Shown in pieces: positions 5,658-35,383 of a DNA stretch of 35,885 nucleotides. Each line of letters starts with the position of its first letter. Position 1 is the first letter of the stretch. The notes beneath the pieces were generated by a model. That model had not been told where the DNA came from. It did no database searches and saw only the letters and a program-made list of their open reading frames with translations. Position numbers and translations under genes: made by a program. The stretch is from positions 1 to 35,885 of the IMG/VR virus record IMGVR_UViG_3300032738_000022; one strand, written 5' to 3'. This DNA comes from a virus.

Positions 5658-6722
5658 CTATATAGTAAAAGCTGCGTCTAGAATGTCGTAGATTCTACCG
5701 AGGCACAGGCTCGAACCTAGCAGTAAGGCACCGTAATTAACGAGCCTTATGCCGCCTGCATCGTAGTCCTCGAGTTCAGGGAATCGGACAAGTTTGTAGA
5801 AGTCACCCAGACCTTCAGTTCCACCATAGGCAAAGGTGATACCAGGCTCCATGTTCATCACGTTACCGTACTTGAGAGTGAAGATGGAGTAGGTCTTATC
5901 ACCACTGGCATAGAGACCTCTAGCTTCGAGGTTAGTGCCACTGCCAGTAGCATCATCCTCAGCCACCAGGTAGTCAGTTCGGATGATAGGGATGCCATCC
6001 CAGAAGAGTACTCTCTTGCCAATGTCATTGTAGCCCATAGAGATGTACATGAGGTTATGGTCTCCAGCAGTACCAGCCCAGCCTTTCTCCTGATAGGCAG
6101 CATCCATTCTGCGGATGAGTTCGTAAGGTGCCAGCATCTCGTCTATGCCTAACTTCATCGCATCTATGTGGTCTCGGAGTAGTGCCATGCTCAATGCAGC
6201 ATCTCCAGCATTGACGTTCTTGGCATCGTAGGTAGAGCCAGCAGTGTAGGGTGTACCGTGTTCTGCGGCTAGAGCATGAAGACCATCGAACTGCTTGGCG
6301 CTAGTCCATGTAGTGTCGGCATAGATGATTCTTGCACCGAGACGCCTCTTCAGACCCTTCTCGGACTCCAATAGCACTCTGGCTTCGTAGTTATTATAGG
6401 TGCCATAGATGCCTTCAACAAAGTGGTCGAGTTTGCGCTGGATGTAGGTGCGCTTGAGTTCCATCTCCTTCTCTTCGTAGGTTACATCCTCAGACCAGGA
6501 GAGCTGTTCACCGATGTCTACTTCAGCGACTGCAGATTCAGTAGTGGTGAGTTCTCTTAACCACTCTATTTTGAGTCCGCTTCGGGCTGCCTGGGCGACT
6601 GGCATTCTTTCTAAAGGGTTGTTGCGTTTTATGTCTTCCTCAAAGACCCCAGGAATCTTCATAGACTGTGTAAGCTTTTGGGCTTGGGCTAATGTAGACC
6701 AATGCCCGCCTGAGTCGGCCAT
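5658..6722 (-). CDS. Major capsid protein (HK97 fold)
   Basis: 354 aa, ATG with AAGGAGGAAAG upstream. It follows a coiled-coil scaffold gene by 22 nt, which is the usual scaffold-capsid order. The size and layout fit HK97-fold capsid proteins of about 350 aa: an N-terminal arm (about 1-50), an E-loop-like region with EDVTYEEKEMELKRTYIQRK, a long central helix region (EARVLLESEKGLKRRLGARI), a P/A-domain with GTPYTAGSTYDAKNVNAGDA, and a late LWDG-type strand (VLFWDGIPIIRTDYLV) typical of capsid proteins of this type. It should form the icosahedral shell and be one of the most abundant products. Confidence 0.85.
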   Translation of the reverse strand: MADSGGHWSTLAQAQKLTQSMKIPGVFEEDIKRNNPLERMPVAQAARSGLKIEWLRELTTTESAVAEVDIGEQLSWSEDVTYEEKEMELKRTYIQRKLDHFVEGIYGTYNNYEARVLLESEKGLKRRLGARIIYADTTWTSAKQFDGLHALAAEHGTPYTAGSTYDAKNVNAGDAALSMALLRDHIDAMKLGIDEMLAPYELIRRMDAAYQEKGWAGTAGDHNLMYISMGYNDIGKRVLFWDGIPIIRTDYLVAEDDATGSGTNLEARGLYASGDKTYSIFTLKYGNVMNMEPGITFAYGGTEGLGDFYKLVRFPELEDYDAGGIRLVNYGALLLGSSLCLGRIYDILDAAFTI

Positions 6723-6744: not shown

Positions 6745-7404
6745 TTACTGTTGTGTCTCGGCAGTGCGAGTGCCTCTTACAGGTGTAGACTGGAGTATCT
6801 TGGCTGCCCTTTCCATAGGTGTTTCAGGAGCAGCTCCAGCTCCAAGTCCACCAGTGGCATAGTTACCAATTCCCCGAGACTGTGATAAGGCTTTAAGAGC
6901 CTCTTCAAAGGAGTCAAGCTGTAGTTCTGTTTTACCTTCTAACTGTTCGGCAGTTACTGCTCCACCAGATTTGAGAAGGATGTTCTGCCGTCTTAGTTCG
7001 AGAGCTTTGGCTATTGCCTGCTCTGCACTGCCTTTGGCAGCATCTAATTCTTGCTTACTCCTCGCAGCTTCTTCGTCAGAAACTGCACCAGACTGACTGG
7101 CCTGTTCTAACTGTTGGACTTTAGCGTTTGCAGCAGCTACAGCCTGTTGAGCATCAGAGACTTCCACCTTAGACTTGTCTATAGCATCGTTGTGGACTGT
7201 CTGTTGCTCTTCCAGCTTCTGCTCCAAACTCCGTTTTGCTGCTATCAAGTCAGACTCATGAACTACCTTCTTGCCATCTACTGTCATAACTCCATCTTTG
7301 ACTTCAAGTACAGGAGGAGTTGTAGTAGTTGGCTCTGAAGAAGGAGTTGCTTGAGGTACTGGCTCTCCACTGCTAGCGGCACCTTGTGGGTTCTGAGTTA
7401 CCAT
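6745..7404 (-). CDS. Capsid scaffolding protein
   Basis: 219 aa, highly charged and alanine/glutamine-rich. Residues about 50-165 are predicted coiled coil (ESDLIAAKRSLEQKLEEQQT onward), which is typical of phage scaffolds, and the gene lies just before the capsid gene. The N-terminus is Pro/Ser/Thr-rich and probably disordered. The start is the ATG at 7404 with GAGGAGGAACAC upstream. A longer reading from 7434 is rejected because those codons are the promoter -10 box (TATACT). The short helical C-terminus (PMERAAKILQS) may contact the capsid. Confidence 0.8.
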   Translation of the reverse strand: MVTQNPQGAASSGEPVPQATPSSEPTTTTPPVLEVKDGVMTVDGKKVVHESDLIAAKRSLEQKLEEQQTVHNDAIDKSKVEVSDAQQAVAAANAKVQQLEQASQSGAVSDEEAARSKQELDAAKGSAEQAIAKALELRRQNILLKSGGAVTAEQLEGKTELQLDSFEEALKALSQSRGIGNYATGGLGAGAAPETPMERAAKILQSTPVRGTRTAETQQ

Positions 7405-7424
7405 GTGTTCCTCCTCTTGAGTAT

Positions 7425-7453
7425 AGTATACCATATTCCAATACGGTTGTCAA
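7425..7453 (-). promoter_or_regulatory. Sigma-70-type promoter of the scaffold/capsid genes
   Basis: On the minus strand TTGACA (7448-7453) and TATACT (7425-7430) are separated by 17 bp, with a TGG extended -10. A second overlapping TATACT-like copy is at 7420-7425. The core ATCCTTGACA and ATATGGTATACT match the promoter upstream of the small terminase at 23000-23028. It sits inside the late block, so it can boost scaffold and capsid expression separately from the upstream genes. The predicted transcript begins only about 12-18 nt before the scaffold ATG. Confidence 0.8.
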
Positions 7454-7506: not shown

Positions 7507-10500
7507 TCATCTTATCATTACTGGATTTAGATACTGCTTCTCTATCTGCTTATAGGTTTCTTTTGCTTGAGTGGATAGTAGAGTGTCCGTACTACCAAAG
7601 AAGTAAGCCCAAGCATCAGTAGTAGGGTCAAGTAGTCTATATCTTTGTCTAGCTTCTCTAAGGGTGCTAGTGAAGTGGCTGATGAGTTTCCTGCCTTCAG
7701 GTCCAGGAGTTGCTCTTATCTCATCACGCTCAGTTCCTCTAGCTACTTCATATCTTCTGATAAGCTCTTGCTGTTCTGGAGTATACTGCTCTAGGACTAC
7801 ATTTCTTATTAGTCTATATGGTCTTAGATACTCTCGGCTAGTCTGCCAATAGAGCTTCTCCATAGGAGTCCAGTCATACTGGATTCTATCCTCAAAGCGC
7901 TGACGGAACTCTCCTTGCATAGATTCTAGTAGAGCATCTATCTTAGCAAAGTAGACATTAAAGTCATAGGCATAGCGGTCATTATCCCAGTCCCACTTGT
8001 ATTCTGGTTTTATTTCATAGTAGTAGTGGAGGAGCTCTTGGTCTGGACTTTGAGTAGGAGCAGGAATACCACGTTCTTTGTATCTTGCTTCTCGTTGTTC
8101 TAGAGTCTTAGGCACATCAGGATAGTCTCTCTTGCCCATCTCCATAGATGCAGCACTAGCATGGTCTAAGACTTCTCCTCTACCATTCACCCACTGGTCA
8201 GGACCTATCTCACCAGATACCCACTGGCGAGTTAGCTCAGTTATAGCAGGCTGTACTAAGTTGCCCTGCTCGTCAAAGATACCAGTATGGCGAGCATCAT
8301 CATATAGCTGCTCTACCTTTTCATAGTAGTCTCTGACCTGCACATCCTCCTTCTGCCAAGTGGAAGGATAGAGAGGAGTTGTTACACCTTGCCAGCGTCT
8401 GTATGCTTCCTGCTCATAGATAATCTTCTGCTGGAGGGAGTCTAGCTTGTAGAAGTCGGAGAACCTCTTACCAGTCGCAGGATAGCGCCTCTGGATAGTC
8501 TCCTGCACATCTACAGGTACTCCAGTTAGTTCAGCTATAAGCTCCTTGAAGTCCTTCTGTATCTGAGTATATTCTTGAGGGCGTAGGCGGAATAGACCAG
8601 TCTGCTCAAAGAGGATACCTTTGAGACCAGTAGCCTTAGCTTCTGCCCTTAGCCAGAGCTTCTCCTCCTCTTCAGTCAGCTTAGTGCCTTGAGACTTCTT
8701 CCTCCATATTTCATCTGCATCATAGCCTTGCTCTGCTAGAGTCAGCATGGTTAGGTAGTCCCTGAATCTGTCTGGGAAGATTCGGTCTATTATCTTGCCT
8801 GCCTGCTCTGGTGCTATTGCTCTAGCAGCATTGAGAGGAGTCTTTATCCAGGCAGGAGCTAGTTCACCAAACTCAGGCTTATTCTGGAAGGCACCAAAGA
8901 GTACTATAGGAGCCATAACGTGTATGCCTGGGTAGAAGCCTAGTCTGCTGATGTAGTCTATAATCTCCATACCAGGGAAGGCATCATAGTATTCAGGAAA
9001 GTCTCTAAGGTATAGTCGTCTGAAGCCTCCCATGAAGACTGTGCCTCGGAGTGGGTTGAACTGGATGTCAGTACCAGGCACAGGGACGTAGCCTTGGTCT
9101 GAGTAGTCCATATATCTGCCTACACCAGTTCCTACACCAGGAGTCTTGAGCATCTGGCGAGGTAGCCAGAACCATCTCTGCCACTCATACTGCCAGAAGG
9201 GGAATATCATTCTCATAGCAGCATCTACAGAGTTGGCGTTAGAGTAGTCAGTGAAGTCCATTTCGTATTGAGTACGAGTCTTCATCATGGCAGATTCTTT
9301 CTTAGCAAACCATTCATCAGTCCCCATCCCAGAAGGAGGCGGTAATCCTACATCCTCATAACCCAGTGCTAGACCTAACTGACGTTGATTAGGCGCATCA
9401 AGAACCTTACTTAGTGCAACGCTATTTTTAGCAACCACAAGAGTCCCATCACTCTGCCTTCCTGTAACTAGTCTGCTCCTACTTGCGAAATCTATTATCT
9501 CCTGCTCAGGAAGAAAGTGAGAATCTGCTAGATAAGCAGGCTTATCCTTTAGAACCTGCCTCATCTCCCACACCTCTGCTTTATACAATACCCCTTCATC
9601 AAACTTCTTGGTACGAGCCATCTCATCAAGCTGCTTTCTGTATGGTGAGCGTAAATGATAAATGTTCTTAGTACCCCATTCAGGAACTATTCCCATTCCT
9701 TCAGGAGCCTCGACAGCAGGTCTAGCCTGATATATTGGCGTCTGTTCTAGGTCATCTGCCAGCTTATTCACATAGCCCTTATACTTTACATAGTCATTCT
9801 CAGGAATCCTGCTAACTCCTTCTATCTTATGCAGCTCCTGCCTGACCTCCTCCAGCTGAGACATAGTTGGTGTCAGAGGCTCGTCTGCTATCATCTTAGG
9901 GTCAAAGCCTAGATTAGCGAACATCTGGTCATAGACATCTCCGATAGCCTCTTTACTGAATCCTATGTCCTCAGGGACTTTACCTACTCTACTGGCAGTC
10001 TTCTTAGATTTGCTATAGACCCAAGTTATGAACTGCCGCTTAGGTCTTATAGTAACCATAGCTCCAACTTTGGTAAGTGCCTTATTGAGGTCATCACCTG
10101 TTACTCCCAGCATATAGGCTACATGAGCAGGAGTTAGTCTATCCACTACCTCTGGTACTACATTGACAGTATCAGGAGTGACACCTAGGTCTACCATTAG
10201 GCGATTCTTGATGTCCTCTACAGCTTCAAATAAGTCTACTTCCTTAGTCCAGTAAGGTTCCCAGGCTTCATTAGAGCGTCTAGTCTCCAGGTGCTCCCAG
10301 AAGGCTTTATCTCGCTGACCTTTAGGAGTTTGCTCCATAGCCTCATTGATTATTCTGCGGTCAAGTTCACGAGTGGAGAGTGTATTTGCATGGCGAGTAC
10401 GAATAGCTTGAGAGAGATTATCTAGAGTAGACAGTTGCTCTGGCTTAAGTAGTTCTGTATCCTCTACAGCCTTCCTAATGCTCTTTAGTATCTCATCTAC

Positions 10501-13458
10501 ACTCTCATTGCTCTTACCTATAAACTCTCCCAGTACTTCATTGCTACCTTTATAGAAGTCCTCAGTCTCCTTTGGGCTTAGCTTCTGTGCTCTGGCACGA
10601 GTAATCTGCCTAACGTCAGATATGCGCTCACCAGTGGCCTCAGTCAAGTCAGATATGAAGCCCATAGTACGAAGTAGCTCATCTGAGTTCTCTGGAACAA
10701 ACTCAGCCAAGTCTACTACTAGTCTATCCAGCATATCAGCCTCATGAGTTAGGCTGGCTATATTGAACTCTCTGATAGAATCTCCTACAGCACCTATCCT
10801 AGTATCTATGCCTTCTTTGAACATCTTACCACTAAGGACTTCCTCCCTGATAGTTCGCTTGTGGATAGAGTATATATCAGTGCACTTGTCCATTACCTTG
10901 TTTATCTCATAGGCTGCTCTGCGTCTCTCTACTTCCAGCACTGGTACATCATGCTTCCTTATCATATCAGGTCCAACAGTAGCATCCTGCTCTAGTACTC
11001 TCCTAAGGTCATTCTTCTCCTTCTTGCTAAAGGATTCTATACCAGCTAGTAGACTGTCAGTATCATCAAAGACCTTAGCTATCTGAGCCATCTCATCAGG
11101 AGCTTCTTTCCATAGGAGCTGCTTGTACTTAGTGAGATAGTACCAGGCTCTCTGCTGAGTACCTATATCTCCGAACATATCATTCCAGTCCTGCCAAGAG
11201 CGGATAGGATAGTCCTTATCACCTATTTTGATAGTAACTCCTAGAGGACCTTTCTTAGTTACAAATGGAATCTTGCCTTTGCTGAAGACTAGTGTCTTGC
11301 CAGTCTTAGGGTCAGTGACAGCTATCTCCAATCTGCCTAGTCTGCCCTGGTGCTGAATGAAGTCGTAGGGTAGATTGCTAAGACCTTCTCCTATCCTGAT
11401 AACTTCATCTATAGGACTAGCTGCTCTGGGGTAGAATACTTCCCCAGCCCCAAGGAAGCTCCTCATAACATTCTCAGCTACATTGAAAGGACCATAATTA
11501 GTAAACAGTAGATATTGGTTAGCCATAGGAGCAGTGACCTGTCTATCAAACCAAGTTACAAGGCTATTGCGGATTATCTTGTCAGTGCTGCGAGTAATCC
11601 AGCTGGTAGCTCTGCCAGACTTAAGAACAAAGTCATAGACAGGACTAGCTATCTTCCTTAGTTGCAAGTCCTCAACATTGCGGAATACTGAGTCTAGGAT
11701 TTCCTTAGCAGTATCTCCTTTGACTATGTCAGTAGCGCCATCAATTATCTTTGTACGCTGCTTCTCTAGTTGAGTTGCTAGCTTACCTAGTACACTTTCA
11801 GTAGGCTCTGCACCAGCATGAGCTAGTATATCTGCTGCTGCCTCCTTTGCAGTCTGGGCTTTGTAGAAGAATCTATCCCAGTTGTAGTTGAAGTCCATAG
11901 CTAGTTGCTTAGTTACATCTACCTTCTTAACTCCAGCAGTAGTAAGTATGTCCTTAATCTGGTCGTCAGCAATAAAGTCATGGTCTATAAGGTAACGGCC
12001 TGTCCTGACTGCCCAGTTACCAGTCTCGTGAGGCATCTCAGCAGCCTGATTGATTGCCAGTTTGAAGGAGTCTACTACTTCAGATGCACTGAGGCTATCT
12101 ATGTTCTTACCAGTCACTCTGCGAAGGAAGGCTCTAGCATCCAAGAAGGATTGTCTAGCATAAGATAGAGCGTGCTGACCAGGAGTCTTAGGAATCATCT
12201 TGATGATACTTCTAACTCCTCGGAAAGGTAAGTCCCAGAGTTCTATCCAGCCTCGCTCAAGACCAGCAGAGAACTTACCTATGTAAGGCAGAGGTTTAGT
12301 TATCTTAGATAGTATGCCTAAGCCTATATAGGTAGTAGGGTCAAACATAGTCTCAATGAACATCTTTAGCCAAATGTTAGTATCCCAGTCCTGGTAGGCT
12401 AAGGAGGCTGCCTGCCAGCTGTTCTCTCCAAGGTCCTTATACTGGTTATATAGAGTCTCTAGCTGGGCTGCATCAGAGTCCTTCCTTATTCTTGGAAATG
12501 CCATGATAGCTAGAGCAGATAGAGGTCTAGGAAGCAGATTCCAGAACTTCTCTAGTAGCTCTAGGGACGCTAAGGCTGGCTGAGTGAACGTCATCTTGAG
12601 GAACTCTACTGGAGTTAACTCTGGAGCTTCTGCCTGTTCTACGCCAGAGCGTAGTAAGTCCATATAGGCTACTTGACACTTCCAGTCATTCACTAGGTCC
12701 TCAGATAGCTCATGGATGTCCTCTATTTGCTTCTGAGTTTCCTCATCAAACTGTAGGTCATTGAGGATGCTTCTCACATCTTCCGTACTCATGCCTTTAG
12801 GGAGCTCTGGAGCTCTAGGCTGGAAGGATTTGAGTAGTTCGTCTACAGTCAGATGATGCACTCCTCGGAGCTCTAGCTTAGGCTGCTGAAGGATAGCTTC
12901 TAGCAGTTGTGTTCTAGCTTCTTCAGGAGTGCCAACAAACTCTGGAGGCAGTTCAGGTGGTATTAGCACAGATGCCTTATTCCAGATGCCTTGTAGCCAC
13001 TGCTGGTCAGAGTCATCTATGAACTCATTAGGGAAGGCAGATACAACATCATCTATGCTACTGATACCACCCTGCCTATCCATTAGTACTATAGGTAGGC
13101 TCTGGAGTACCTGCTGTCTCCAGCTAACTTTAGTATAATCCATAGTAGCAGTTTCCAGCTCTGCTCTAGACTGCTGTAGCATCCTCTGATAATCAGCCTC
13201 TGGCATTAGACCACCAGTGGCAGGAGCAAAGAATCCAGCTGGAGGTCTAAATCCAGGTATTCCACTAATAGGATGTCTAATACCAAGCTGCTTGGCTTTC
13301 TCTAGTTCTCGGCTAGCTTCTGTCAGACGCTTCTGAGCCTGATAGCGACCTCTTGCCAGCTGAGTGGATTCTAGCTTAAAGCCAGGGAAGTACTCCTGTG
13401 GCTCTGGAGGAGGTGGAGGAACTACTGGCGGCTTCTTTTCTTCAGGTGGCATAGTCAT
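7507..13458 (-). CDS. Giant virion-associated protein, 1983 aa
   Basis: ATG with AGGAGTATAATATT upstream, one uninterrupted frame. It lies between portal and scaffold, where many phages encode a minor head or MuF-type protein, but it is several times longer. Residues about 8-25 are a poly-proline tract. Much of the chain is helical and charged. Two segments recall large 'polyvalent' phage proteins: near residue 370 a hydrophobic FDPTTYIGLGILSKITKPLP, and near residue 1415 MIFPFWQYEWQRWFWLPRQM, an aromatic 'FPF-W' signature. I see no clear lysozyme, protease or polymerase motif. Best guess: an internal virion protein injected with or guarding the DNA. A tape measure role is less likely because of position before the scaffold. 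It makes up about a sixth of the window. Confidence 0.65.
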   Translation of the reverse strand: MTMPPEEKKPPVVPPPPPEPQEYFPGFKLESTQLARGRYQAQKRLTEASRELEKAKQLGIRHPISGIPGFRPPAGFFAPATGGLMPEADYQRMLQQSRAELETATMDYTKVSWRQQVLQSLPIVLMDRQGGISSIDDVVSAFPNEFIDDSDQQWLQGIWNKASVLIPPELPPEFVGTPEEARTQLLEAILQQPKLELRGVHHLTVDELLKSFQPRAPELPKGMSTEDVRSILNDLQFDEETQKQIEDIHELSEDLVNDWKCQVAYMDLLRSGVEQAEAPELTPVEFLKMTFTQPALASLELLEKFWNLLPRPLSALAIMAFPRIRKDSDAAQLETLYNQYKDLGENSWQAASLAYQDWDTNIWLKMFIETMFDPTTYIGLGILSKITKPLPYIGKFSAGLERGWIELWDLPFRGVRSIIKMIPKTPGQHALSYARQSFLDARAFLRRVTGKNIDSLSASEVVDSFKLAINQAAEMPHETGNWAVRTGRYLIDHDFIADDQIKDILTTAGVKKVDVTKQLAMDFNYNWDRFFYKAQTAKEAAADILAHAGAEPTESVLGKLATQLEKQRTKIIDGATDIVKGDTAKEILDSVFRNVEDLQLRKIASPVYDFVLKSGRATSWITRSTDKIIRNSLVTWFDRQVTAPMANQYLLFTNYGPFNVAENVMRSFLGAGEVFYPRAASPIDEVIRIGEGLSNLPYDFIQHQGRLGRLEIAVTDPKTGKTLVFSKGKIPFVTKKGPLGVTIKIGDKDYPIRSWQDWNDMFGDIGTQQRAWYYLTKYKQLLWKEAPDEMAQIAKVFDDTDSLLAGIESFSKKEKNDLRRVLEQDATVGPDMIRKHDVPVLEVERRRAAYEINKVMDKCTDIYSIHKRTIREEVLSGKMFKEGIDTRIGAVGDSIREFNIASLTHEADMLDRLVVDLAEFVPENSDELLRTMGFISDLTEATGERISDVRQITRARAQKLSPKETEDFYKGSNEVLGEFIGKSNESVDEILKSIRKAVEDTELLKPEQLSTLDNLSQAIRTRHANTLSTRELDRRIINEAMEQTPKGQRDKAFWEHLETRRSNEAWEPYWTKEVDLFEAVEDIKNRLMVDLGVTPDTVNVVPEVVDRLTPAHVAYMLGVTGDDLNKALTKVGAMVTIRPKRQFITWVYSKSKKTASRVGKVPEDIGFSKEAIGDVYDQMFANLGFDPKMIADEPLTPTMSQLEEVRQELHKIEGVSRIPENDYVKYKGYVNKLADDLEQTPIYQARPAVEAPEGMGIVPEWGTKNIYHLRSPYRKQLDEMARTKKFDEGVLYKAEVWEMRQVLKDKPAYLADSHFLPEQEIIDFASRSRLVTGRQSDGTLVVAKNSVALSKVLDAPNQRQLGLALGYEDVGLPPPSGMGTDEWFAKKESAMMKTRTQYEMDFTDYSNANSVDAAMRMIFPFWQYEWQRWFWLPRQMLKTPGVGTGVGRYMDYSDQGYVPVPGTDIQFNPLRGTVFMGGFRRLYLRDFPEYYDAFPGMEIIDYISRLGFYPGIHVMAPIVLFGAFQNKPEFGELAPAWIKTPLNAARAIAPEQAGKIIDRIFPDRFRDYLTMLTLAEQGYDADEIWRKKSQGTKLTEEEEKLWLRAEAKATGLKGILFEQTGLFRLRPQEYTQIQKDFKELIAELTGVPVDVQETIQRRYPATGKRFSDFYKLDSLQQKIIYEQEAYRRWQGVTTPLYPSTWQKEDVQVRDYYEKVEQLYDDARHTGIFDEQGNLVQPAITELTRQWVSGEIGPDQWVNGRGEVLDHASAASMEMGKRDYPDVPKTLEQREARYKERGIPAPTQSPDQELLHYYYEIKPEYKWDWDNDRYAYDFNVYFAKIDALLESMQGEFRQRFEDRIQYDWTPMEKLYWQTSREYLRPYRLIRNVVLEQYTPEQQELIRRYEVARGTERDEIRATPGPEGRKLISHFTSTLREARQRYRLLDPTTDAWAYFFGSTDTLLSTQAKETYKQIEKQYLNPVMIR

Positions 13459-13462
13459 AATA

Positions 13463-15232
13463 TTATACTCCTGGGCCTAACTGTGGTACTGCTTCTGGTC
13501 TGCCTAATCCAGGTAGCTGCTCTGCTGCTTGTTGAGGTTGTCTAGCAGGCTGACCCATAGCAGAGAGCTGCGCTATTGCAGCATCAGCAGCTAGGCTGTA
13601 TAGTCTTGCTGTCTCAACATCGCCAATCTTCTCTAGGTAAGCTGCCTGCTCTCTATGATACTGTATGAGAGCTATTACTGCATTACTCATGTGAAGTTCA
13701 GCTTGGTCAGAGCGGATTCTAGCCCTCTCCCTCAGAGGGTCTTTGATGTCAGGGAAGAGCTTCTGCACTACGTAGGAGTAGCTGAGCTGGAACTCTGGGT
13801 CTAGCATCCTAGCTGTAGTTGCTCTCTGCACTAAGTCCCCGGGTATCTCTATCTCATATTCGGCAGTAGCTTTAGCATCTGGAGATAGGTCGGTAGGGTA
13901 CTTCCAGCCATAAGGCCTTACTCCCCTCTCCCTAATATCCTGCAGCCAGTCATTGTCCTCATCAGTATTGAGGTCAACAAAGGCCTGATGAAAAGGCTTC
14001 ATTACCTGATTAGCAGAGGCTGCTATCTGAGACATAACATAGGAGCTTATCTGCCCCTGTAAGTTGCCATACATACCCCAGTTAACTCCGCCTCGCTGCA
14101 TCATAGCTTCGAGGTCAAGTTGTGTGCTTCTTAGCTCTAGAGGTATAGGTGGAGTACCTATGAACTCTACATTATCCATAGGACCTCCACGGAAGATTGC
14201 TCCTCTGCGGAAGACATCTTCAGGGCGGACTATAGGCTTGCCACTAGCACTCCGCTCAAAGATTCTAGGCTGAGCAGTGTCTCTTAGCAGCTGTAGGCTA
14301 AAGCTCCACCACTTATTCCAGACACGGTAGATATGCTCATTAGTGGCTATGATGCTTTGACCTAGCTCCTGCTTCCACCTGTCAGCAATAGTAGTATCCT
14401 GAGTATGGAGCTTCAGAGTTGAAGAATACTTGTCAGCTATTACTCCTTCAGATAGGCTACCTATATCAGGCAGGCCTCCTACTGGTGCTACATAGATAGG
14501 AATCTTCTTGAAGCGAGTCTGCTCAAACTTTACCATCTGGTCATCTATGACTATAGCGTTCCAGACAACATGACTGAATGGGAAGGTGTCAGATACTTCT
14601 ATCCACCAGTAGTCATAGACTTTGACACCTCTGGCAGCACCCATAGACCACTGGCGAGCTATGCCTTCCTTTATCTCCCAGCCATTCTGCCTAGATATGT
14701 TTATGGCTCTCCGAGGAGTTACTTCAAAGATATGAGCTACCTCATCCAGTCCCCAATCTCCATCCCACATAGGGAAGACTTCTGTTGGAGACCAGACATC
14801 AAGGTAGCATCGGCTGCCATCATCAGATACTACTGAGAACTCTGCATACCAGCCAGTTGCTAGCATATAGCCTAGTCTAGTTCTATTGAGACTCTGTCTA
14901 GGTCCTCTCCGCCTGAAGCTATCAGCCACATCCTTCCAGGCTAGTTCATAGAAGCGATTGACTTCCGCATTAGCTACTGATTCTTCTATCTGAGTAACAT
15001 CAGTCTTTGCTATGCGATGAGGAATCTTGACATCTAGAAGATGGAGGGTGAGGTTATATAGTGACCGAGGATCGTTGCCTACGAAACTCTCCATTTTCTC
15101 TGTTTTAAGTTCGTCGACCATCTCAATCATTCTGTACCACTGTTTCATCTTGTCATTTCTTGGCTGCCAGAACTGTCTTAATGTATCGCAGCGAGTTTGT
15201 ACTTCTGATGCTGATTCTTTTATTCTAGGCAT
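13463..15232 (-). CDS. Portal protein
   Basis: 589 aa, ATG with GGGAGGCACATT upstream. It follows the large terminase and the small nuclease-like gene and precedes the giant virion protein, scaffold and capsid, the normal place for a portal. Features fitting portals: N-terminal helices (RCDTLRQFWQPRNDKMKQWY), a wing-like middle with WSPTEVFPMWDGDWGLDEVA, then IPIYVAPVGGLPDIGSLSEG, a clip/stem region near QISSYVMSQIAASANQVMKP, and a long C-terminal helical part ending in a Pro/Gln-rich tail. It should form the dodecameric DNA channel at one capsid vertex and dock the terminase. Size is within the range of portals (450-700 aa). Confidence 0.8.
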   Translation of the reverse strand: MPRIKESASEVQTRCDTLRQFWQPRNDKMKQWYRMIEMVDELKTEKMESFVGNDPRSLYNLTLHLLDVKIPHRIAKTDVTQIEESVANAEVNRFYELAWKDVADSFRRRGPRQSLNRTRLGYMLATGWYAEFSVVSDDGSRCYLDVWSPTEVFPMWDGDWGLDEVAHIFEVTPRRAINISRQNGWEIKEGIARQWSMGAARGVKVYDYWWIEVSDTFPFSHVVWNAIVIDDQMVKFEQTRFKKIPIYVAPVGGLPDIGSLSEGVIADKYSSTLKLHTQDTTIADRWKQELGQSIIATNEHIYRVWNKWWSFSLQLLRDTAQPRIFERSASGKPIVRPEDVFRRGAIFRGGPMDNVEFIGTPPIPLELRSTQLDLEAMMQRGGVNWGMYGNLQGQISSYVMSQIAASANQVMKPFHQAFVDLNTDEDNDWLQDIRERGVRPYGWKYPTDLSPDAKATAEYEIEIPGDLVQRATTARMLDPEFQLSYSYVVQKLFPDIKDPLRERARIRSDQAELHMSNAVIALIQYHREQAAYLEKIGDVETARLYSLAADAAIAQLSAMGQPARQPQQAAEQLPGLGRPEAVPQLGPGV

Positions 15233-15335: not shown

Positions 15336-15656
15336 TCATTGCGTGTCATCACCTCTCAGATGACCACAATTTTGGCATATAATCATATCATCAGACCACC
15401 TATAAGGCTCAGATTCATTGTAAGGAAACACCCATACCTCAGTGAATATTTCAAGCAAAGCATTCAGCTTCCTTGTAACACTACCCCCGCACTCCAATGC
15501 AATCTTAGTGCCATTCTTTATACCTACCAAGTCTATAGCATAATAGCCCTTAGCAAGTAGCTTAGGTACCTTGGCCTCAACCAAAATACTATCATAACCA
15601 TTCTCCCTAAGCCAAGCTACTCCCATACCTATCTTATAAGTATGCTTATCAGACAC
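15336..15656 (-). CDS. Small PD-(D/E)XK-type nuclease-like protein
   Basis: 106 aa from a GTG at 15656 that overlaps the terminase stop (TAGTG) and follows GGGGGAG by 6 nt; a TTG 15 nt earlier is the alternative. The core, IDLVGIKNGTKIALECGG (D42, E55-C-G57), has the spacing of a restriction-endonuclease-like D...E-x-(K/G) centre as in competence- and nickase-type proteins, and is followed by an EVWVFPY strand. The last residues contain CQNC (94-97), half of a zinc site. The catalytic lysine of the standard motif is not obvious (G57 in its place, K63 nearby). It may be a mobile nuclease or help terminase; the assignment is from pattern only. Confidence 0.5.
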   Translation of the reverse strand: MSDKHTYKIGMGVAWLRENGYDSILVEAKVPKLLAKGYYAIDLVGIKNGTKIALECGGSVTRKLNALLEIFTEVWVFPYNESEPYRWSDDMIICQNCGHLRGDDTQ

Positions 15657-17326
15657 TAGAATCTCCCCCAACTTTCATCCCACCCAGCAGAACCAATGTA
15701 CCCTCTGTCTAGAGGCATTGCGTTTCTACATACTATGGCGATTGCTCCACAGTCGTGATGGTCGTCAGCTCCAACTACCGATATGCCTGTCCTCACTGAG
15801 CTATCTCTACGGATATTCTTACACTGGCTCCAGAAGCGTATATCATGGCAGGTGATGTACTCCATGTTCCTGCTCAGTTCAGTAATCATATAAGGCTTAG
15901 TACTGACATTAGTCTGCCAACCTACTGCTCTTATGACTTTACCATCCCTGGGGTCTTCACGGTAGTAGAGGCTAGGCCAATCTCTAAGATGACTTACTAT
16001 ATCCAGATTGTCCTCTGGTGCTATTACAGTGTTCTTATAGAACCTTGCAGCCTCTTTGCAGTATTCTGCCATCTCCCACTCATCATACCAGCCTGATAAA
16101 GTTGCACAGTGCTTCATCTCGGGAGGTATAACCTTTCCATCCTTCTCCTCATAACCTTCCTTAAAAGTCCAAATATGCCCTACTGATTCAGAGGTCTTGC
16201 CTTTGCCAGGGTCTATAGACATTAGATAACCTTTGCCTTCTTCAGGAGGATACCAGATTTCTAAGGTAGCAGCTAGGCCAGTTTTAGGATTTACTATATT
16301 CTGCTGGATAGAAGCAGGATAGCATCCTCTTAGCTTCTCTGATATAATGTCTATATTGTAGGCTATACCTCCAGCAGTCAGGAAGCAACTCTCATCATCC
16401 TCTGGGAACTCCTGCTCAAATATAAATATAGTTTCTCCAGTGCGCCTCATACTAGCCATCTCAGCTTTCTTGTATCTTCTCCACCTGACCCTGCCCATAG
16501 CCTCAGTATCATTAAGGCCAATACTTAATAGTATCTTAAGTAGATTAACCTCATCTGGCTGTAAGTTAGGTAGAGGCTCATGGTCATCTCCAGATAGGCA
16601 GAATGGGTCATCAGGGTACATCACATACTCAGGATGGATAAACCAAGGATAGAAGTGGTGGCTGTATACTGACTTAGATACTGATGTTCCTTCCTTGGAT
16701 GCTCTATACATCTCACAGAAAGGATTATCCTCACCATTAGCCGTACTGCCTATTCTAATCTTAGTTCCTACCTTTAGAGGTACTCTCTGGACTGCTGATG
16801 CGAATACTACCTCATGAGTACCAAAAGGCCAGAATCCATATTCATCTAAGAGTAGATTGTGTATAGTCTCACCACGACCTAGCATATAGCTTCTAGCAGA
16901 AAAGATATACATGACAGAGTAGAAGTTAGTATCCTTATTCTCCCAGCTAAGCTCTGTAGATGACTTGTGGTCTAGCTTAGCAATAGTAGATATTCGTCTT
17001 TGTAGGCTCTGATGATAGCGCTTGACCTTTAGGATTTGCCTTTGAGCAGAGAACTCATCATAAGAGATAATGACTGATACAGTTCCGTTGATAGTAATAT
17101 TATCAAGGTAGAAGTCTCCAAGTACAATAGAAGTAAATCCTACCTGCCCAGGTTTCACATAGATATCTCTGGGACCTGAGGATAGTATAATATCATCCTG
17201 AATAGGATTAGGAGCAAGTGGAACTACTTGCCTATCCTTGTTCTCTATCTCCAATAGTGTAGATAATGCTAGGCGTCTGTCAGAGAACAGAGTTCTCATA
17301 GTTTGTTCAATCGTGCCACTAACCAT
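15656..17326 (-). CDS. terL: Terminase large subunit
   Basis: 556 aa. The ATG overlaps the stop of the preceding gene (TAATG) with GAGGAG upstream. ATPase part: a degenerate Walker A around residues 57-66 (VKPGQVGFTS), Walker B LLLDE at 158-162, and a coupling motif IGSTANG at 192-198. Nuclease part (RNase H fold): D372 in YLMSIDPGKGK, E438 in TVIAPEDN, and a D521/D522-x-x-D525 cluster in GADDHHDCGA. A GWQTN...TKPYM segment lies just after E438 as in many large terminases. It cuts and pumps concatemeric DNA into the prohead through the portal. All key acidic residues are present, so it should be active. Confidence 0.92.
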   Translation of the reverse strand: MVSGTIEQTMRTLFSDRRLALSTLLEIENKDRQVVPLAPNPIQDDIILSSGPRDIYVKPGQVGFTSIVLGDFYLDNITINGTVSVIISYDEFSAQRQILKVKRYHQSLQRRISTIAKLDHKSSTELSWENKDTNFYSVMYIFSARSYMLGRGETIHNLLLDEYGFWPFGTHEVVFASAVQRVPLKVGTKIRIGSTANGEDNPFCEMYRASKEGTSVSKSVYSHHFYPWFIHPEYVMYPDDPFCLSGDDHEPLPNLQPDEVNLLKILLSIGLNDTEAMGRVRWRRYKKAEMASMRRTGETIFIFEQEFPEDDESCFLTAGGIAYNIDIISEKLRGCYPASIQQNIVNPKTGLAATLEIWYPPEEGKGYLMSIDPGKGKTSESVGHIWTFKEGYEEKDGKVIPPEMKHCATLSGWYDEWEMAEYCKEAARFYKNTVIAPEDNLDIVSHLRDWPSLYYREDPRDGKVIRAVGWQTNVSTKPYMITELSRNMEYITCHDIRFWSQCKNIRRDSSVRTGISVVGADDHHDCGAIAIVCRNAMPLDRGYIGSAGWDESWGRF

Positions 17327-17583
17327 TACTGCTCCTCACCACCAAAGTTATATGTATCTCCATCATCCATGAAGACTGTATCTGGTACAAACTCAATATA
17401 GATGGCTTCAGGGAAGAAGGCTAGAATCTCATTGATAATAGAGATGCTTAGCCTCTTCTCGTGCATTATCTGTACTACTGGATTAGTACCAGGTTGTAGC
17501 ACCCTCCGCATAGTATACTTGAGTTTCAGCTTCTTGAAGATTCTATCTAATTCTGGTGCTGCTGTAAGTTCACTCCAGCCCAC
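17326..17583 (-). CDS. Uncharacterised 85-aa protein before the large terminase
   Basis: GTG start at 17583, preceded by GGAGG at 7 nt; a TTG 18 nt upstream is possible but weaker. The gene overlaps the end of the HNH gene by 14 nt and its stop overlaps the terminase ATG, so the three may be translated together. The product is mixed alpha/beta with basic N-terminal half (DRIFKKLKLKYTMRRVLQPG) and acidic C-terminus (MDDGDTYNFGGEEQ). No family recognised. Its location suggests a DNA-packaging accessory role. Confidence 0.6.
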   Translation of the reverse strand: MGWSELTAAPELDRIFKKLKLKYTMRRVLQPGTNPVVQIMHEKRLSISIINEILAFFPEAIYIEFVPDTVFMDDGDTYNFGGEEQ

Positions 17584-17950
17584 AATAGTCCTCCAGTCCA
17601 ATTCTTTTCATCAAGTTCAAAGCGTATTCCCTTTCTATATCAGACTTCCTTGTTAGATATAATTTGTCTAGGTTCTTCTCTAGCTGCCCAGCCATGACAT
17701 GACAGTTCTTGCACAGCCAGATACCCATAGCTGGCATACTATCATCCCAATGGTGATAATCCTTATGTCTACCTTCCAGAATAATACCACAGACCTCACA
17801 GAATCCTAAAAATGGTCTCTTAAGCTCACCATTAGGTAGCACATGACCATTCAACTTTCGGAGCATCCTTCTTTCTCTATATTTTATCCTATATTCTTCA
17901 GGCTTCTCTGGATGCTTGAGACGCCATATTTTTGACCTACTTAATCCCAT
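17570..17950 (-). CDS. HNH endonuclease
   Basis: 126 aa. Zinc/HNH core: C51-x2-C54, H66-H67 in KDYHHWDDS, then C80-x2-C83-H84 in IWLCKNCH. This is the phage HNH type with a beta-beta-alpha metal finger held by two CxxC pairs. The N-terminal third is very basic (KYRERRMLRKLNG), fit for DNA contact. It lies between a fibre gene and the terminase genes and resembles the 143-aa HNH protein at 34952 on the other strand in its core. It could be a free-standing mobile endonuclease, or an HNH partner of the terminase as in some cos phages. Confidence 0.75.
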   Translation of the reverse strand: MGLSRSKIWRLKHPEKPEEYRIKYRERRMLRKLNGHVLPNGELKRPFLGFCEVCGIILEGRHKDYHHWDDSMPAMGIWLCKNCHVMAGQLEKNLDKLYLTRKSDIEREYALNLMKRIGLEDYCGLE

Positions 17951-21787: not shown

Positions 21788-21964
21788 TTATCTCCTTCTA
21801 GTTCTTCCTGTCCTCTGCACTCTACCTACTGCATATAGCCTCTTCCTCATAACTCTGCCAGGTGAGCGAGGTTCCTTAGTTCTAATCCTACTTAACTGTG
21901 CTCTTCTGATATTTCTTGAAGACGCAGCCCTAGCCTTGCTGGACTTCACCATTCCTCTTGCCAT
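21788..21964 (-). CDS. Arginine-rich protamine-like protein, 58 aa
   Basis: Reads MARGMVKSSKARAASSRNIR and ends in GRVQRTGRTRRR. By count 17 Arg and 4 Lys in 58 residues against one Glu. The start could be ATG 21964 (no close ribosome binding site) or ATG 21952 (AAGAGGA immediately before it); I give the longer form because small basic phage proteins often begin MA-x-G. It overlaps the end of the LAGLIDADG gene by 35 nt and ends 4 nt before the holin-like gene. Probably binds DNA; family unknown. Confidence 0.6.
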   Translation of the reverse strand: MARGMVKSSKARAASSRNIRRAQLSRIRTKEPRSPGRVMRKRLYAVGRVQRTGRTRRR

Positions 21965-22385
21965 AGCTACCAGAGTTCAGCTCCTTGTTTCTTTGATATA
22001 AACATTCTCTTCTAGCAACCTCATCATTGCCTGTAATTCTACTATAAGAGTCTTTCTCTTTGCCATTGCTATTATACAGTTCTAGGCATACCCATGCCTG
22101 CTCAAACTTGATACGTAGTCTAGGAAGTAAATCTACCAACAGTGGTTCTGCCTTTCTGCTGCAAATAGTCCATCTTGAACAATTTCCTCTAGAGTCGTGG
22201 TTTACAGAGCCTCCAAACTGTGATTGCAAGTCTGTCAGCAACTGAAGATTAGTATTAGCAACACAAAGTGAAGGACTATATGATGGGTTTACTGTTCTAC
22301 GCCTAATACCAGGCTTTATCTTAGTAATGTAGATGCAACCATCAGCATCTACCAATCCTGCTAGATAATCTAAACTAATACCCAT
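21930..22385 (-). CDS. LAGLIDADG homing endonuclease, single-motif
   Basis: 151 aa. YLAGLVDADGCIYI at residues 7-20 is a textbook LAGLIDADG helix with both acidic residues, followed by the expected strands (PSLCVANTNLQLLTDLQSQF, GGSVN) and a later WTICSRKAEPLLVDLLPRL block. A single motif means it would act as a homodimer on a near-palindromic site. It is free-standing, with its own ATG and AAGGATGGAAGA ribosome binding site, in the gap between the small terminase and the basic-protein genes. No intron or intein is visible around it, so it is likely an intronless mobile endonuclease. Confidence 0.85.
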   Translation of the reverse strand: MGISLDYLAGLVDADGCIYITKIKPGIRRRTVNPSYSPSLCVANTNLQLLTDLQSQFGGSVNHDSRGNCSRWTICSRKAEPLLVDLLPRLRIKFEQAWVCLELYNSNGKEKDSYSRITGNDEVARRECLYQRNKELNSGSYGKRNGEVQQG

Positions 22386-31014: not shown

Positions 31015-31992
31015 ATGTCAAGTGAACTGCACTCGCATGACAGACAACTATATACTATCTCTGACCTACTATCTTGGACTCCCCCTTCTATAACTCGTAT
31101 CATCTCAGACGGAGTCCTCAACATCCGTAACAAGATGCTCATCTTCGGAGATGAAGGCAGCTGGAAGTCTATGCTTGCACTCCATACTGCCCACTGTCTA
31201 GCACGAGGCACTACCTGGCTAGGCTTCCGTACTACTCCATCTAATACTCTCAAGCTCCAAGTAGAGCTTCCTCTCTATATGGATAGAGATAGAACTAACA
31301 AGTACTGCAATGGTAGCAAGAGTATCTTCCTATCTAAGTATACTCACTCCTCTCCTACTATGGAGCAGCTAGATAGAGTAGATGAACTTGCCACTCAGTA
31401 TGCCTACCCTCCCACAGTAGTAAGCCGCACTGAACAGTTCCTACACATAGATGAATCATCTGGCTTTGAGTCTCTCAAGCGAAGTATAGAATCCTGCATA
31501 TCCTATCTACCTGCTGCTCCTCTAGTAGTAATCCTCGACCCTCTATACAAGATGTTCAATCGCAATCTATCTGACGAACAGGATGTTAAGCCTATGCTAG
31601 AGAAGTTTGACATTCTCATGGAGGACTTAGGTAACCGCTCTGGTATAGGCATATCTACTATCATAATACACCATACTAGGAAGGCTGTAACTGATGACAA
31701 AGGTACTCCTCTATCCCTTGGCAGTCAGGATGCTACAGGCAGTAGGGCTCTAGTCCGCTGGGCTGATACTGTCCTTCGCATAGACCCTGCTCGTAGTGAT
31801 GAGACTATGACTCGTGTAAATCTTACCTTCACCAAGCACCGCAATGCAGAAGCACCGCTGCCTATCATTACACTCCGCTGGAATAGAGATACTCTACATC
31901 CTCGTATACTATCTCGGCGTAGGCCTATAGATGAATCAGAAGACAATGAGCTGGAGATTAGAAGTGACTTAGACTTGAGTACTCTAGAATGA
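31015..31992 (+). CDS. RepA-like hexameric replicative helicase (AAA_25/DnaB superfamily)
   Basis: 325 aa, ATG with AAGGATGGGTA upstream. RecA-fold ATPase: Walker A G45-DEGSWK51-S52, the 'G-x-x-G-S-aromatic-K-S' form seen in RepA-like ATPases; Walker B LVVILDPLYKM with D175; a sensor strand STIIIHHTRK near 214-223; and GSQDATGSRALVRWADTVLR after it, all in RepA/AAA_25 order. Expected to unwind DNA as a ring at the phage origin. The gene uses many C/T-ending and CGT/CGC codons, unlike the purine-rich neighbours, which hints at separate origin. An A+T-rich intergenic region follows. Confidence 0.8.
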   Translation: MSSELHSHDRQLYTISDLLSWTPPSITRIISDGVLNIRNKMLIFGDEGSWKSMLALHTAHCLARGTTWLGFRTTPSNTLKLQVELPLYMDRDRTNKYCNGSKSIFLSKYTHSSPTMEQLDRVDELATQYAYPPTVVSRTEQFLHIDESSGFESLKRSIESCISYLPAAPLVVILDPLYKMFNRNLSDEQDVKPMLEKFDILMEDLGNRSGIGISTIIIHHTRKAVTDDKGTPLSLGSQDATGSRALVRWADTVLRIDPARSDETMTRVNLTFTKHRNAEAPLPIITLRWNRDTLHPRILSRRRPIDESEDNELEIRSDLDLSTLE

Positions 31993-32182
31993 ATAAATAT
32001 AATAGCTAGAGAACCCAGATGGTTAGAGGAGGTATTCTATATGTGATGCATATAATATAATGTATATCTGTTAACGATTATTTATTATCGCCAGTCATAC
32101 CAGTGTCTATGGCATTGACAACTCATCGTACTATATGGTATAATTATATTATCGGTAAGGAGTATATAAGGAGGAAACACTA
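31993..32182 (+). promoter_or_regulatory. A+T-rich intergenic region with promoter (32115-32144)
   Basis: 190 nt without a gene. A strongly A+T-rich block (about 32040-32095, ATATAATATAATGTATAT and TATTTATTATCG) follows the helicase. Then comes a promoter: TTGACA (32115-32120), 18-bp spacer, TATAAT (32139-32144), TGG extended -10. The A+T-rich block next to a helicase gene could be an unwinding element of the origin, but no iterons were found. A strong AAGGAGGAAACACTA before ATG 32183 completes the leader. Confidence 0.75.
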
Positions 32183-32428
32183 ATGGCAAGTTCAGGAGCA
32201 CTACAGAGAGCAGCGCAGGCTTGGTGTACACCAGAGACAGAGAAGATAACTATGGATACTAAGCTGGCAGAGTCCTTTGCTGACATAATTGAAGAGATAT
32301 GGAGTCAGCCTTGGCTTGGCAACGCTACAACTGCAGAGCTAATAGATGAGCTGAGGGCAAGATGTGAAGTTAACGGAACACTTAACTACAAGACAGTAGG
32401 AGGTGATATATTGAAGAAACTACAATAG
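32183..32428 (+). CDS. Conserved small phage protein, 81 aa
   Basis: ATG with AAGGAGGAAACACTA upstream. The stretch LAESFADIIEEIWSQPWLGN then ATTAELIDELRARCEVNGTL and YKTV resembles a small protein type found in other phages ('W-PWLGNATT-ELL-ELRAR'). Helical with one Trp-Pro-Trp element. First gene of the recombination block, so it may serve it. Function unknown. Confidence 0.65.
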   Translation: MASSGALQRAAQAWCTPETEKITMDTKLAESFADIIEEIWSQPWLGNATTAELIDELRARCEVNGTLNYKTVGGDILKKLQ

Positions 32429-32500
32429 TAGCTATTCTGATTCCACTCAATCTTCTAATACCACTAATCATACTAAAACTATTACATTTAGGAGGAAAGC

Positions 32501-33226
32501 ATGGTACAAGAAAATCCAGTAAGCACAAGAGGCCTAATTGATGGTGAGATATTTACTCCGCTGAGAAGAATCACTGGAGTACTAGATGGCTTACCAAGAG
32601 AGAAGGATGACAAGTATAACAGGTACAATATCACTGTAAACCTGAAAGACCTAGAGGTCATAGAGACTACAGAGCCTTACCACTATCCAATATTCTCAGC
32701 CAGGTTCGGCGAGTCTAACAGGAAGAAGTCTAAGTGGGGGATGCTATCTGAATCCTTCAATGAGATTGTAGACTCTATCCTCACTGCTGAGCAGAAGGAC
32801 TCTAACAATCCTAACTACCTAGCACCAAAGGGCAGGACTGATATGAAGGACTGCATTGGCAAGAGAATAGGTCTGGTGATGGCAGATGGAGATGATGGCA
32901 GACCAGCACCACCTATGCTCTATGACGGCAGAGCTGATGAGGATAAGCCTACCCCCACATGGATGGTCTACTCAGTGGAAGGCTTTGGAGTGGCTGGTGG
33001 TCAGGGAGTAACACCACTGGATAAGGCTATGACTATGCTGGATGGTAAGACTCTGGCAGACTTCAATGCTGCTGCACTAGCTGACCCAATAGTCAGAGGA
33101 GATGCTACTCTCCTAGCCTCAATCTCTATGCCTCCATCTGCTCCTAACTCATTCGGTAATACCATGATAGCATCACTCAAGTTTACCATAGATGAAAATG
33201 GAGTATATAAGAAGGTAGTAGCTTAA
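32501..33226 (+). CDS. Candidate ssDNA-binding / recombination protein, 241 aa
   Basis: ATG with TTAGGAGGAAAGC upstream. The first half is beta-rich (EIFTPLRRITGVLDGL, YNRYNITVNLKDLEVIETTE), compatible with an OB fold, the middle carries a basic KKSKWGMLSESF helix region and a DCIGKRIGLVMADGDDGRPA loop, and the end is LKFTIDENGVYKKVVA. Placed directly before a PD-(D/E)XK nuclease and a Sak4-like ATPase, where ssDNA-binding proteins are often found. The fold and role are inferred from this context; no decisive motif is present. Confidence 0.5.
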   Translation: MVQENPVSTRGLIDGEIFTPLRRITGVLDGLPREKDDKYNRYNITVNLKDLEVIETTEPYHYPIFSARFGESNRKKSKWGMLSESFNEIVDSILTAEQKDSNNPNYLAPKGRTDMKDCIGKRIGLVMADGDDGRPAPPMLYDGRADEDKPTPTWMVYSVEGFGVAGGQGVTPLDKAMTMLDGKTLADFNAAALADPIVRGDATLLASISMPPSAPNSFGNTMIASLKFTIDENGVYKKVVA

Positions 33227-33238
33227 CAAAAGAATAGG

Positions 33239-33406
33239 CTTGCTGGTGTCCTGCCAAAAAACTATCGGTATTAGCAGAAGTTGTCCATCTGCGCAGGCGA
33301 AATCCTACCGAGCCAGCAAGGTGCCAGCTACCCCAAAGGGCACTTAGAAGAAAAACAGTAGCGTGAATGAAGGCGAGATTACAGCCAAGTGGCTACTGGC
33401 TGGCAC
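33239..33406 (+). ncRNA. Candidate structured 5' leader RNA (pseudoknot) of the RecB-like gene
   Basis: Perfect nested pairings: CTTGCTGG (33239-33246) with CCAGCAAG (33313-33320); CCTGC (33250-33254) with GCAGG (33293-33297); TCGGTA (33266-33270, from T33265) with TACCGA (33306-33311); GCAGA (33274-33278) with TCTGC (33288-33292). The second and third helices cross, giving an H-type pseudoknot inside a closing stem, with A-rich linkers. Then GTGCC (33321-33325) can pair with GGCAC (33339-33343), or GTGCCAGC (33321-33328) with GCTGGCAC (33399-33406), which touches the AAGGAG of the next gene. I do not recognise a known riboswitch or ribozyme class. Confidence 0.5.
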
Positions 33407-33417
33407 TAAGGAGTATC

Positions 33418-34955: not shown

Positions 34956-35383
34956 ATACAGGTACTTGCGCTAGATGCAAAAAGGTCTTCTGGGAAGATG
35001 AGATGGCTTCTAATGGTAAGCGCAAACCCGTGTACTGTAGACCATGCGTAGCTGAGATAATGAGAGATTGGCGTAATAATAATCGTAAACGGAACTTAGA
35101 GAATGAAAGGGCATGGCGTAGGAACCATCCTAACAAGTGCAACGAAAGAAACCGTGAATGGAAACTTCTTGAGCCAGAGAAGGTCAAGGCAATTAACGAT
35201 TTGAACAATGCAGTAGTAGCTGGCAGAATAACTAGGCTACCTTGCGAAATGTGTGGAGCCTTTCCTACTGACGCACATCACGATGACTACTCTAAACCCT
35301 TAGAGGTAAGATGGTTATGCCACTCTTGCCACCAGAGGCTGCACCAAGAAAGGAGAGAACAGAGTGCCTCGCCTATATGTTGA
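34952..35383 (+). CDS. HNH endonuclease with extra zinc knuckles
   Basis: 143 aa, ATGA overlap with the ATPase gene. N-terminal zinc site C6-x2-C9 and C29-x2-C32; a basic linker (RNNNRKRNLENERAWRRNHP); then the HNH core C98-x2-C101, H109-H110 in DAHHDDYSKPL, C123-x2-C126-H127 and H131 (WLCHSCHQRLH). The 'AHH-DY-KPL-V-WLC--CH---H' pattern is typical of phage HNH nucleases, which resolve or nick DNA. Its core resembles the HNH gene at 17570. Being inside the recombination operon, it might be a working partner and not merely mobile. Confidence 0.85.
   Translation: MNTGTCARCKKVFWEDEMASNGKRKPVYCRPCVAEIMRDWRNNNRKRNLENERAWRRNHPNKCNERNREWKLLEPEKVKAINDLNNAVVAGRITRLPCEMCGAFPTDAHHDDYSKPLEVRWLCHSCHQRLHQERREQSASPIC

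Follow-up and report, generated by a model that had tools for sequence, protein, structure and literature searches.

A giant protein encoded between the portal-like and capsid genes of uncultivated phages carries a fixed internal slot for exchangeable domains

The core proteins of phage T7 are large internal proteins that are ejected together with the DNA. N4-type virion RNA polymerases and P22-type ejection proteins are described in similar terms (PMC12633501, PMC8402733), and the N4 enzyme (vRNAP) is reported to be fused to a peptidase domain (PMC5512222). Polyvalent proteins, as presented by Iyer et al. (2017; PMC5512222), are large, are encoded with virion genes and combine at least two disparate domains. 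The domains named there include ART, GNAT, Pol-beta NTase, zincin-like metallopeptidase and ParB-like DNase domains; injection of these proteins is predicted, and the Pol-beta NTases are placed mainly in conjugative elements, not in phages. MuF polymorphic toxins are encoded just downstream of the portal gene and join a conserved body to a variable effector in a C-terminal extension, with short and extended versions coexisting (PMC5576092). Packaging is assumed in these accounts for MuF proteins encoded at this place and for polyvalent proteins whose genes lie near virion genes (PMC5512222, PMC5576092). The internal proteins Ip1-Ip3 of phage T4, which come from separate small genes and carry a packaging signal, are described as variable, injected and directed against host defences (PMC12373910).

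The stretch of DNA analysed here (the window) is one entire IMG/VR virus record, IMGVR_UViG_3300032738_000022, of 35,885 bases. It encodes a protein of 1983 aa, here called the giant protein. Its parts and the neighbouring genes are as follows.

5658-6722, minus strand: major capsid protein, 354 aa (phrog_212, E 6.1e-14)
6745-7434, minus strand: scaffold-like protein, 229 aa (by position, directly before the major capsid gene)
7507-13458, minus strand: giant protein gene P0001, 1983 aa (open frame, relatives, purifying selection)
7510-9318, minus strand: C-terminal core, aa 1381-1983, with the highest conservation (A1, an alignment of 35 sequences; model mostly helical)
8887-8952, minus strand: most hydrophobic segment, aa 1503-1524 (hydropathy scan)
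9088-9204, minus strand: conserved FPFWQYEW...RYMDYSDQGY stretch, aa 1419-1457 (intein sites in relatives; intein-free in the window)
9319-9738, minus strand: site C, the variable slot, aa 1241-1380, filled in the window by a cassette predicted to be alpha/beta (family comparison and model; no database match)
9739-13458, minus strand: N-terminal and middle core, aa 1-1240, a proline-rich start and then an almost all-helical predicted body (conservation, AlphaFold2 model)
10452-10707, minus strand: region of site B, the second slot, with insertion points at aa 918 and 1003 and no insert in the window (comparison with relatives)
13463-15232, minus strand: portal-like protein, 589 aa (position; one of 18 family members matches phrog_156, E 0.0043)
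15656-17326, minus strand: large terminase, 556 aa (4 of 14 family members match phrog_2; distant phage records)

The single 6-kb frame given in a preliminary description, made from the sequence alone, was confirmed: it starts with ATG and is read on the minus strand from 13458 to 7507. In 200 base shuffles of the gene, the longest stop-free run was 179 codons, compared to 1983 in the real gene, so the frame is far beyond chance. Moreover, dN/dS between the window and its closest relative (L002) is 0.097 on one side of the slot and 0.098 on the other, and this purifying selection means that the giant is a real protein. The proline-rich N-terminus (aa 4-20) and the aromatic FPFWQYEW segment (aa 1419-1426) are present as described. 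The DPTTYIG segment is also there, at aa 374-380, but it is not hydrophobic, as had been thought; with mean hydropathy above 1.2 in 19-aa windows as the threshold, the scan points only to aa 1503-1524.

The surrounding genes are those of a portal-terminase phage. Twenty-one distant phage records matched the major capsid protein, 17 of them labelled as such. The large terminase matched 78 distant records by tblastn, 21 of the 25 among the matches listed being labelled terminase; in its family the best phrog_2 match had E 4.8e-16, while the window's own terminase did not match phrog_2 in PHROGs. The portal is weakly indicated by its position and by the one weak match to phrog_156, and it is in this sense that the giant gene sits among late virion genes, next to a portal. 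The portal-like gene ends at 13463 and the giant gene starts at 13458, immediately downstream. All 43 distinct loci holding the three genes have them in the order portal, giant, capsid, and in each the giant is in one frame. Thus, the gene order agrees with the earlier placement between portal and scaffold, with the portal weakly profiled and the scaffold assigned by position. It had also been said that this position usually holds a smaller protein, which is broadly true of annotated phages with distantly related terminase or capsid genes. The largest gene product between portal and major capsid is 324 aa in ctQWt234, where the portal is labelled head to tail joining protein, and 309 aa in RHph_N1_10. 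For Effie the value would be 234 aa, on the assumption that its portal is encoded by the unlabelled gene following the terminase. The interval of ctuNt529 is unreadable, as no gene there is labelled capsid.

Other genes of the window can be noted here. A 111-aa gene lies between the terminase and the portal (15336-15671, minus strand; no Pfam match at E<=0.01), and the length of the terminase-portal gap varies among relatives. A 126-aa protein (17570-17950, minus strand) had no Pfam match at E<=0.01; its pairs of Cys and His suggest an HNH endonuclease. There is a free-standing LAGLIDADG endonuclease gene (21930-22385, minus strand; PF00961, 29.8 bits, cut-off 23.1). A replication and recombination arm (31015-35801, plus strand) encodes an AAA_25 primase/helicase-like protein, a Sak4-like annealing protein, an endonuclease, a protein with an RVT_3 match, and an exonuclease (phrog_298, E 8e-29). 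PF00589, the one integrase family tried, had no match.

We found no credible match for the whole giant protein in Pfam, PHROGs, NCBIfam or PDB sequences. A full-length profile match to an ordinary tape measure protein or to another known family, which would speak against a novel protein, was looked for in Pfam, PHROGs and NCBIfam and was absent. Since the gene precedes the capsid gene and is not among tail genes, and since no tape measure family was matched in these three libraries, identity as a tail tape measure was rejected. The Pfam scan at E<=1 returned just two unrelated matches, ATP-cone (E 0.053) and motB (E 0.1), both discarded as far below cut-off. Neither MuF family (PF04233 and PF06152, the accessions used in PMC5576092) was among the matches, and a MuF identity was rejected on this ground, although the scan leaves room for more distant homology. 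Among 50,697 phage records, tblastn gave nothing at E<=1e-5; its sole match (E 3, an Escherichia phage), at a place with no annotated gene, was considered chance. The divergent members L050 and L058 did not match any phage record either, and among the titles listed in searches of open-licence PMC papers none concerned this protein family. The suggestion that the protein may hold undescribed domains agrees with these results, as the libraries used gave no match for the core or for the window's cassette. Given its absence from the phage records and the small genes at its place in annotated phages, the giant protein looks, as far as sequence can tell, like a feature of an uncultured phage group. 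The only host lead, from one scan of genome_contigs, is a single 5.6-kb contig (L113) in a Gammaproteobacteria metagenome bin, which is too little to name a host.

Relatives, designated by L numbers, were gathered by IMG/VR scans with the giant protein, the capsid, the terminase and the C-terminal alignment. One scan with the latter yielded 118 related stretches, the best 80 of which were kept as loci. Related contigs reach about 41-44 kb. Complete giant frames are about 1,800 to 2,816 aa long; the protein of L021 has 1,630 aa, missing the first 400 or so residues. The body is conserved throughout, most strongly in its last 600 aa (alignment A1). Two relatives have unusual frames: the gene of the close relative L003 (L003:8001-11683) is split after some 1077 residues by a change of frame, either natural or due to an assembly error, and the divergent L050 (L050:6093-8954) is longer by about 950 aa at its C-terminus, where an HExxH motif occurs and metallopeptidase families match weakly, each below its cut-off.

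Structure prediction and fold search, proposed earlier as a check, produced models (pLDDT 67-71) and no convincing structural match. The AlphaFold2 model of the N block (aa 60-1245, mean pLDDT 70.7) is almost all helix, and that of the C block (mean pLDDT 66.6, moderate confidence) is mostly helical. At E<=0.001, Foldseek found no match for the C block in PDB or BFVD or for the N block in BFVD, including any N4-type or T7-like fold. Among the closest BFVD rows for the N block, many bear the name tape measure protein; with E >1e-3 and TM-scores of about 0.05-0.11, they may be what a long helical model gives by chance. In the PDB, VIA-align paired the N block, mainly its model residues 829-1034, with talin, vinculin, FANC proteins, designed bundles and other structures (best row Z 13.2, rmsd 4.1, 164 aligned); these rows appear unspecific, being at about the tool's level for helical models in general. 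A weak alignment joins C-block model residues 387-458 with an ejectosome protein of phage PhiM1 (8vb2; Z 5.0, rmsd 4.3, 71 aligned). In Pfam, the giant has no polymerase, lysozyme or other match above cut-off by which it could be assigned to the N4-type, P22-type or T7-like internal proteins.

The most informative feature of the giant protein, which lies beyond what the preliminary description covered, is a swap slot at site C. Compared in full 60-aa blocks, the window and L002 share 73-98% of residues everywhere but in the two blocks of aa 1261-1380, where identity is 34% and 30%; beside the slot, it is about 90%. A forced alignment of the two cassettes gave 32.8% identity, compared to a mean of 27.5% for 40 shuffled copies, three of which reached 32.8%, and BLASTP yielded nothing better than E 2.5. 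Therefore, the window and its nearest relative carry cassettes without detectable similarity. The G+C content of the window's cassette (45.5%) is nearly equal to that of the giant gene (45.7%).

In 69 distinct proteins, chosen by flank similarity, site C holds 4-28 aa in 29 cases and 88-403 aa in 40, with none at 30-87 aa. As there are no intermediate lengths, the slot is either empty or filled by a domain. The 40 cassettes fall into 25 sequence families (phmmer E<1e-3), an upper figure for unrelated kinds that depends on the threshold and the set, as some families may be related at the profile level. A separate set of 70 non-redundant cassettes was chosen by cassette similarity. When site-B inserts are added, single linkage puts 34 of 62 inserts in one cluster, partly via core flank contained in the site-B pieces.

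Cassettes move between cores: those of L002 and L158 are 48.8% identical (phmmer E about 1e-75), far more alike than their flanks, which share just 25.8% and 36.3%. Likewise, L072, L163 and L159 are 87-95% identical beside the slot at the amino acid level, and the slot is empty in L072, holds a family F4 (L002-type) cassette in L163 and a family F1 (ART-type) cassette in L159. On a tree of 64 cores, the empty and loaded states require 24 changes; the mean for shuffled states is 21.1, and 193 of 200 shuffles need 24 or fewer. The tree was built quickly under LG+G4, some of its long branches are flagged, and five of the 69 proteins were left out for a short C-terminal stretch. For each of the families F1 to F6, the number of presence/absence changes equals the number of members on the tree. 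Slot content thus has no detectable signal of descent at this tree depth. For the tree neighbours L044 and L078, and L150 and L151, shared descent with loss in between is an equally good reading. As the cassette matches in forward-strand frames of 174 sequences were confined to giant frames, no cassette donor was seen among them.

To characterize the cassettes, 21 of the 40 at site C were scanned against Pfam. Three pass the curated cut-off, namely L031 (NTP_transf_2, a nucleotidyltransferase) and L037 and L063 (GNAT). Three more match ART-PolyVal below its cut-off of 31.2 (L044 and L058 just below, at 31.0 and 30.3, and L159 lower, at 22.1), and 15 had no usable match. L014, L040, L078 and L154 belong to the same sequence family and join the ART set by homology. 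An invariant HExxH followed by a later Glu, the arrangement of zincin peptidases, occurs in one site-C insert and in six site-B inserts; these seven are putative zincins by this motif, with no profile match. A site-B insert (L174:8531-8947) matches ParB_N with 25.3 bits, the cut-off being 26.3. Profile comparison did not confirm the GNAT nature of a site-B domain or the link of the L002-type cassette to the ART set, both of which are resemblances only, and profiles of four insert families gave nothing convincing against PDB. The L002 and L044 cassettes did not match any phage record.

The window's own cassette had no match in any search, including Pfam, and a scan with it alone returned two pattern matches and no relative. 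Within the C-block model it is predicted to be alpha/beta. Model residues 48-122 align with PA2723 (6tcb; Z 5.1, rmsd 4.5, 75 aligned) and residues 45-109 with an R3H domain (1whr; Z 4.3, rmsd 4.8, 65 aligned). These alignments, below the tool's own noise level, are only a lead to a possible nucleic-acid-binding fold. A short 'ALGY' near the ends of this cassette (9319-9738) and of that at L139:5646-6074 was seen by eye; the comparison of the two is not significant (E 1.9).

A second slot exists at site B. Around aa 918, the gap between the flanks is 120-197 aa in some relatives, compared to 6-20 aa in others, and around aa 1003 it is 139-237 aa compared to 38-59 aa. Twelve loci are loaded at both slots; two of them, L079 and L111, have one more insertion slightly upstream of site C (aa 1220), which is counted in their long site-C piece. 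The same modules recur at both slots, the L155 site-C cassette matching a site-B insert of L017 (L155_C and L017_B2, E 1e-22) and that of L154 one of L139 (L154_C and L139_B1, E 1e-27).

The family resembles polyvalent proteins (PMC5512222) in size, in being encoded with virion genes and in the kinds of domains carried, but it varies solely at fixed internal slots of one conserved body, the main slot often being empty. The proposal that the giant is a polyvalent internal protein finds support at the family level: enzyme-like domains of ART, GNAT, NTase, HExxH and ParB types occur in the same core at the portal-capsid place, and some loci have two inserts. This support does not yet reach the window's protein, which has one cassette with no named domain, no Pfam match above cut-off and no recognised catalytic domain. 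With MuF toxins, as described in PMC5576092, the family shares the place of the gene, a conserved body with a variable part, and the coexistence of short and extended versions. Unlike the C-terminal extension of those toxins, the variable part of the giant is internal to a body of about 1,800 aa, L050 being the exception.

Relatives also contain inteins. We found 11 inteins of about 300-315 aa in 10 contigs (13 of the 130 frames examined, some of them from the same contig), about 42-72 core residues beyond the site C slot. They occupy three points, after W1422, E1425 and Y1452, which lie within 30 residues in the conserved FPFWxYEW...RYMDY stretch. Each begins with Cys or Ser, ends with Asn and is followed by Cys, Ser or Thr, and by eye the joined flanks give the motif of uninterrupted homologues. 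The one intein scanned, from L073, matched PF14890 with E 0.0015 and 18.8 bits, the cut-off being 35.8. The same protein (L073:1070-9232) has two different inteins about 30 extein residues apart, and LAGLIDADG-like motifs were read by eye in the giant-gene inteins of relatives. The window's protein has no intein in the FPFWQYEW...RYMDYSDQGY stretch. Inteins usually choose conserved, essential positions; therefore, the FPFWxYEW...RYMDY stretch is probably important for the work of the giant protein. Inteins of phage terminases have been described (PMC3556154, PMC7886860), and neither of these two sources was seen to mention inteins in a protein encoded at this place.

We consider it probable that the giant protein is a scaffold that is packaged in the capsid and ejected to deliver interchangeable effectors. 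It would lie inside the capsid near the portal and leave together with the genome, much as is described for N4-type, P22-type and T7 proteins. The common job of its conserved, mostly helical body would be packing by the portal, ejection and perhaps a part in a channel, and site C, with the second slot at site B, would serve as docking points for effector domains that target the host or its defences as infection begins. Packaging, ejection and payload action are inferred because polyvalent and MuF genes have a like setting and like domains in the accounts cited (PMC5512222, PMC5576092). The proposed cassettes would parallel T4 Ip1-Ip3, with the difference that they are domains inside one giant protein. 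The rapid turnover of the slot fits an arms race with host-specific defences, as argued for the T4 internal proteins (PMC12373910), while neutral gain and loss would likewise erase the signal of descent.

The latter point belongs to the main alternative, which we consider unlikely: the giant would be an ordinary ejection or tape-measure protein, and the slot a tolerant surface loop collecting neutral insertions. Indeed, the insert is dispensable in nature, as the 29 proteins without it demonstrate, most scanned cassettes have no identified enzyme, slot content tracks no lineage, as expected under neutral gain and loss, and tape measure names are frequent among the closest BFVD rows of the N block. 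Still, those rows may be due to chance, and the gene precedes the capsid gene and is not among tail genes. Moreover, the inserts are domain-sized with no intermediate lengths, their frames stay open, and several keep signatures of enzyme families.

Somewhat less likely again is that the giant is a late non-virion enzyme or a factor of packaging or capsid assembly, with cassettes acting in the producing cell. From the place of the gene among packaging and head genes no more than late expression can be read, which would suit such a role, but a 6-kb gene beside the portal, in phages with contigs of up to about 41-44 kb, fits a structural role better, and the comparable proteins cited above are taken as packaged (PMC5512222, PMC5576092). 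That the cassettes are selfish elements rather than effectors seems very improbable. The inteins close to the slot in 10 contigs bring this to mind, but they are uniform in length and in their Cys/Ser ... Asn|Thr/Cys/Ser frame, whereas inserts at site C differ in length, and ART, GNAT or NTase signatures are present in several of them.

The concept nearest to these findings, that of the polyvalent protein, already exists. New are the core family, which resembles none in the libraries used, the slot at a fixed internal place whose contents turn over very fast, and the resulting list of candidate effectors. In the extended form of the delivery reading, which we put forward tentatively and with less than even confidence, the giant would be a delivery chassis with a payload bay, in which unrelated effectors are exchanged fast enough for close relatives to differ in payload or to have none, each answering a particular host defence, and the 140-aa cassette of the window would be a new injected effector. 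If the delivery reading is right, the slot works as an address label, so that whatever domain lies between the conserved flanks becomes a candidate for an injected effector or a counter-defence protein. The 40 cassettes in about 25 sequence families, most of those scanned having no recognised domain, would then be such candidates, obtained without a cultured phage, and closely related phages with different payloads would provide a natural comparison for the role of early injected enzymes.
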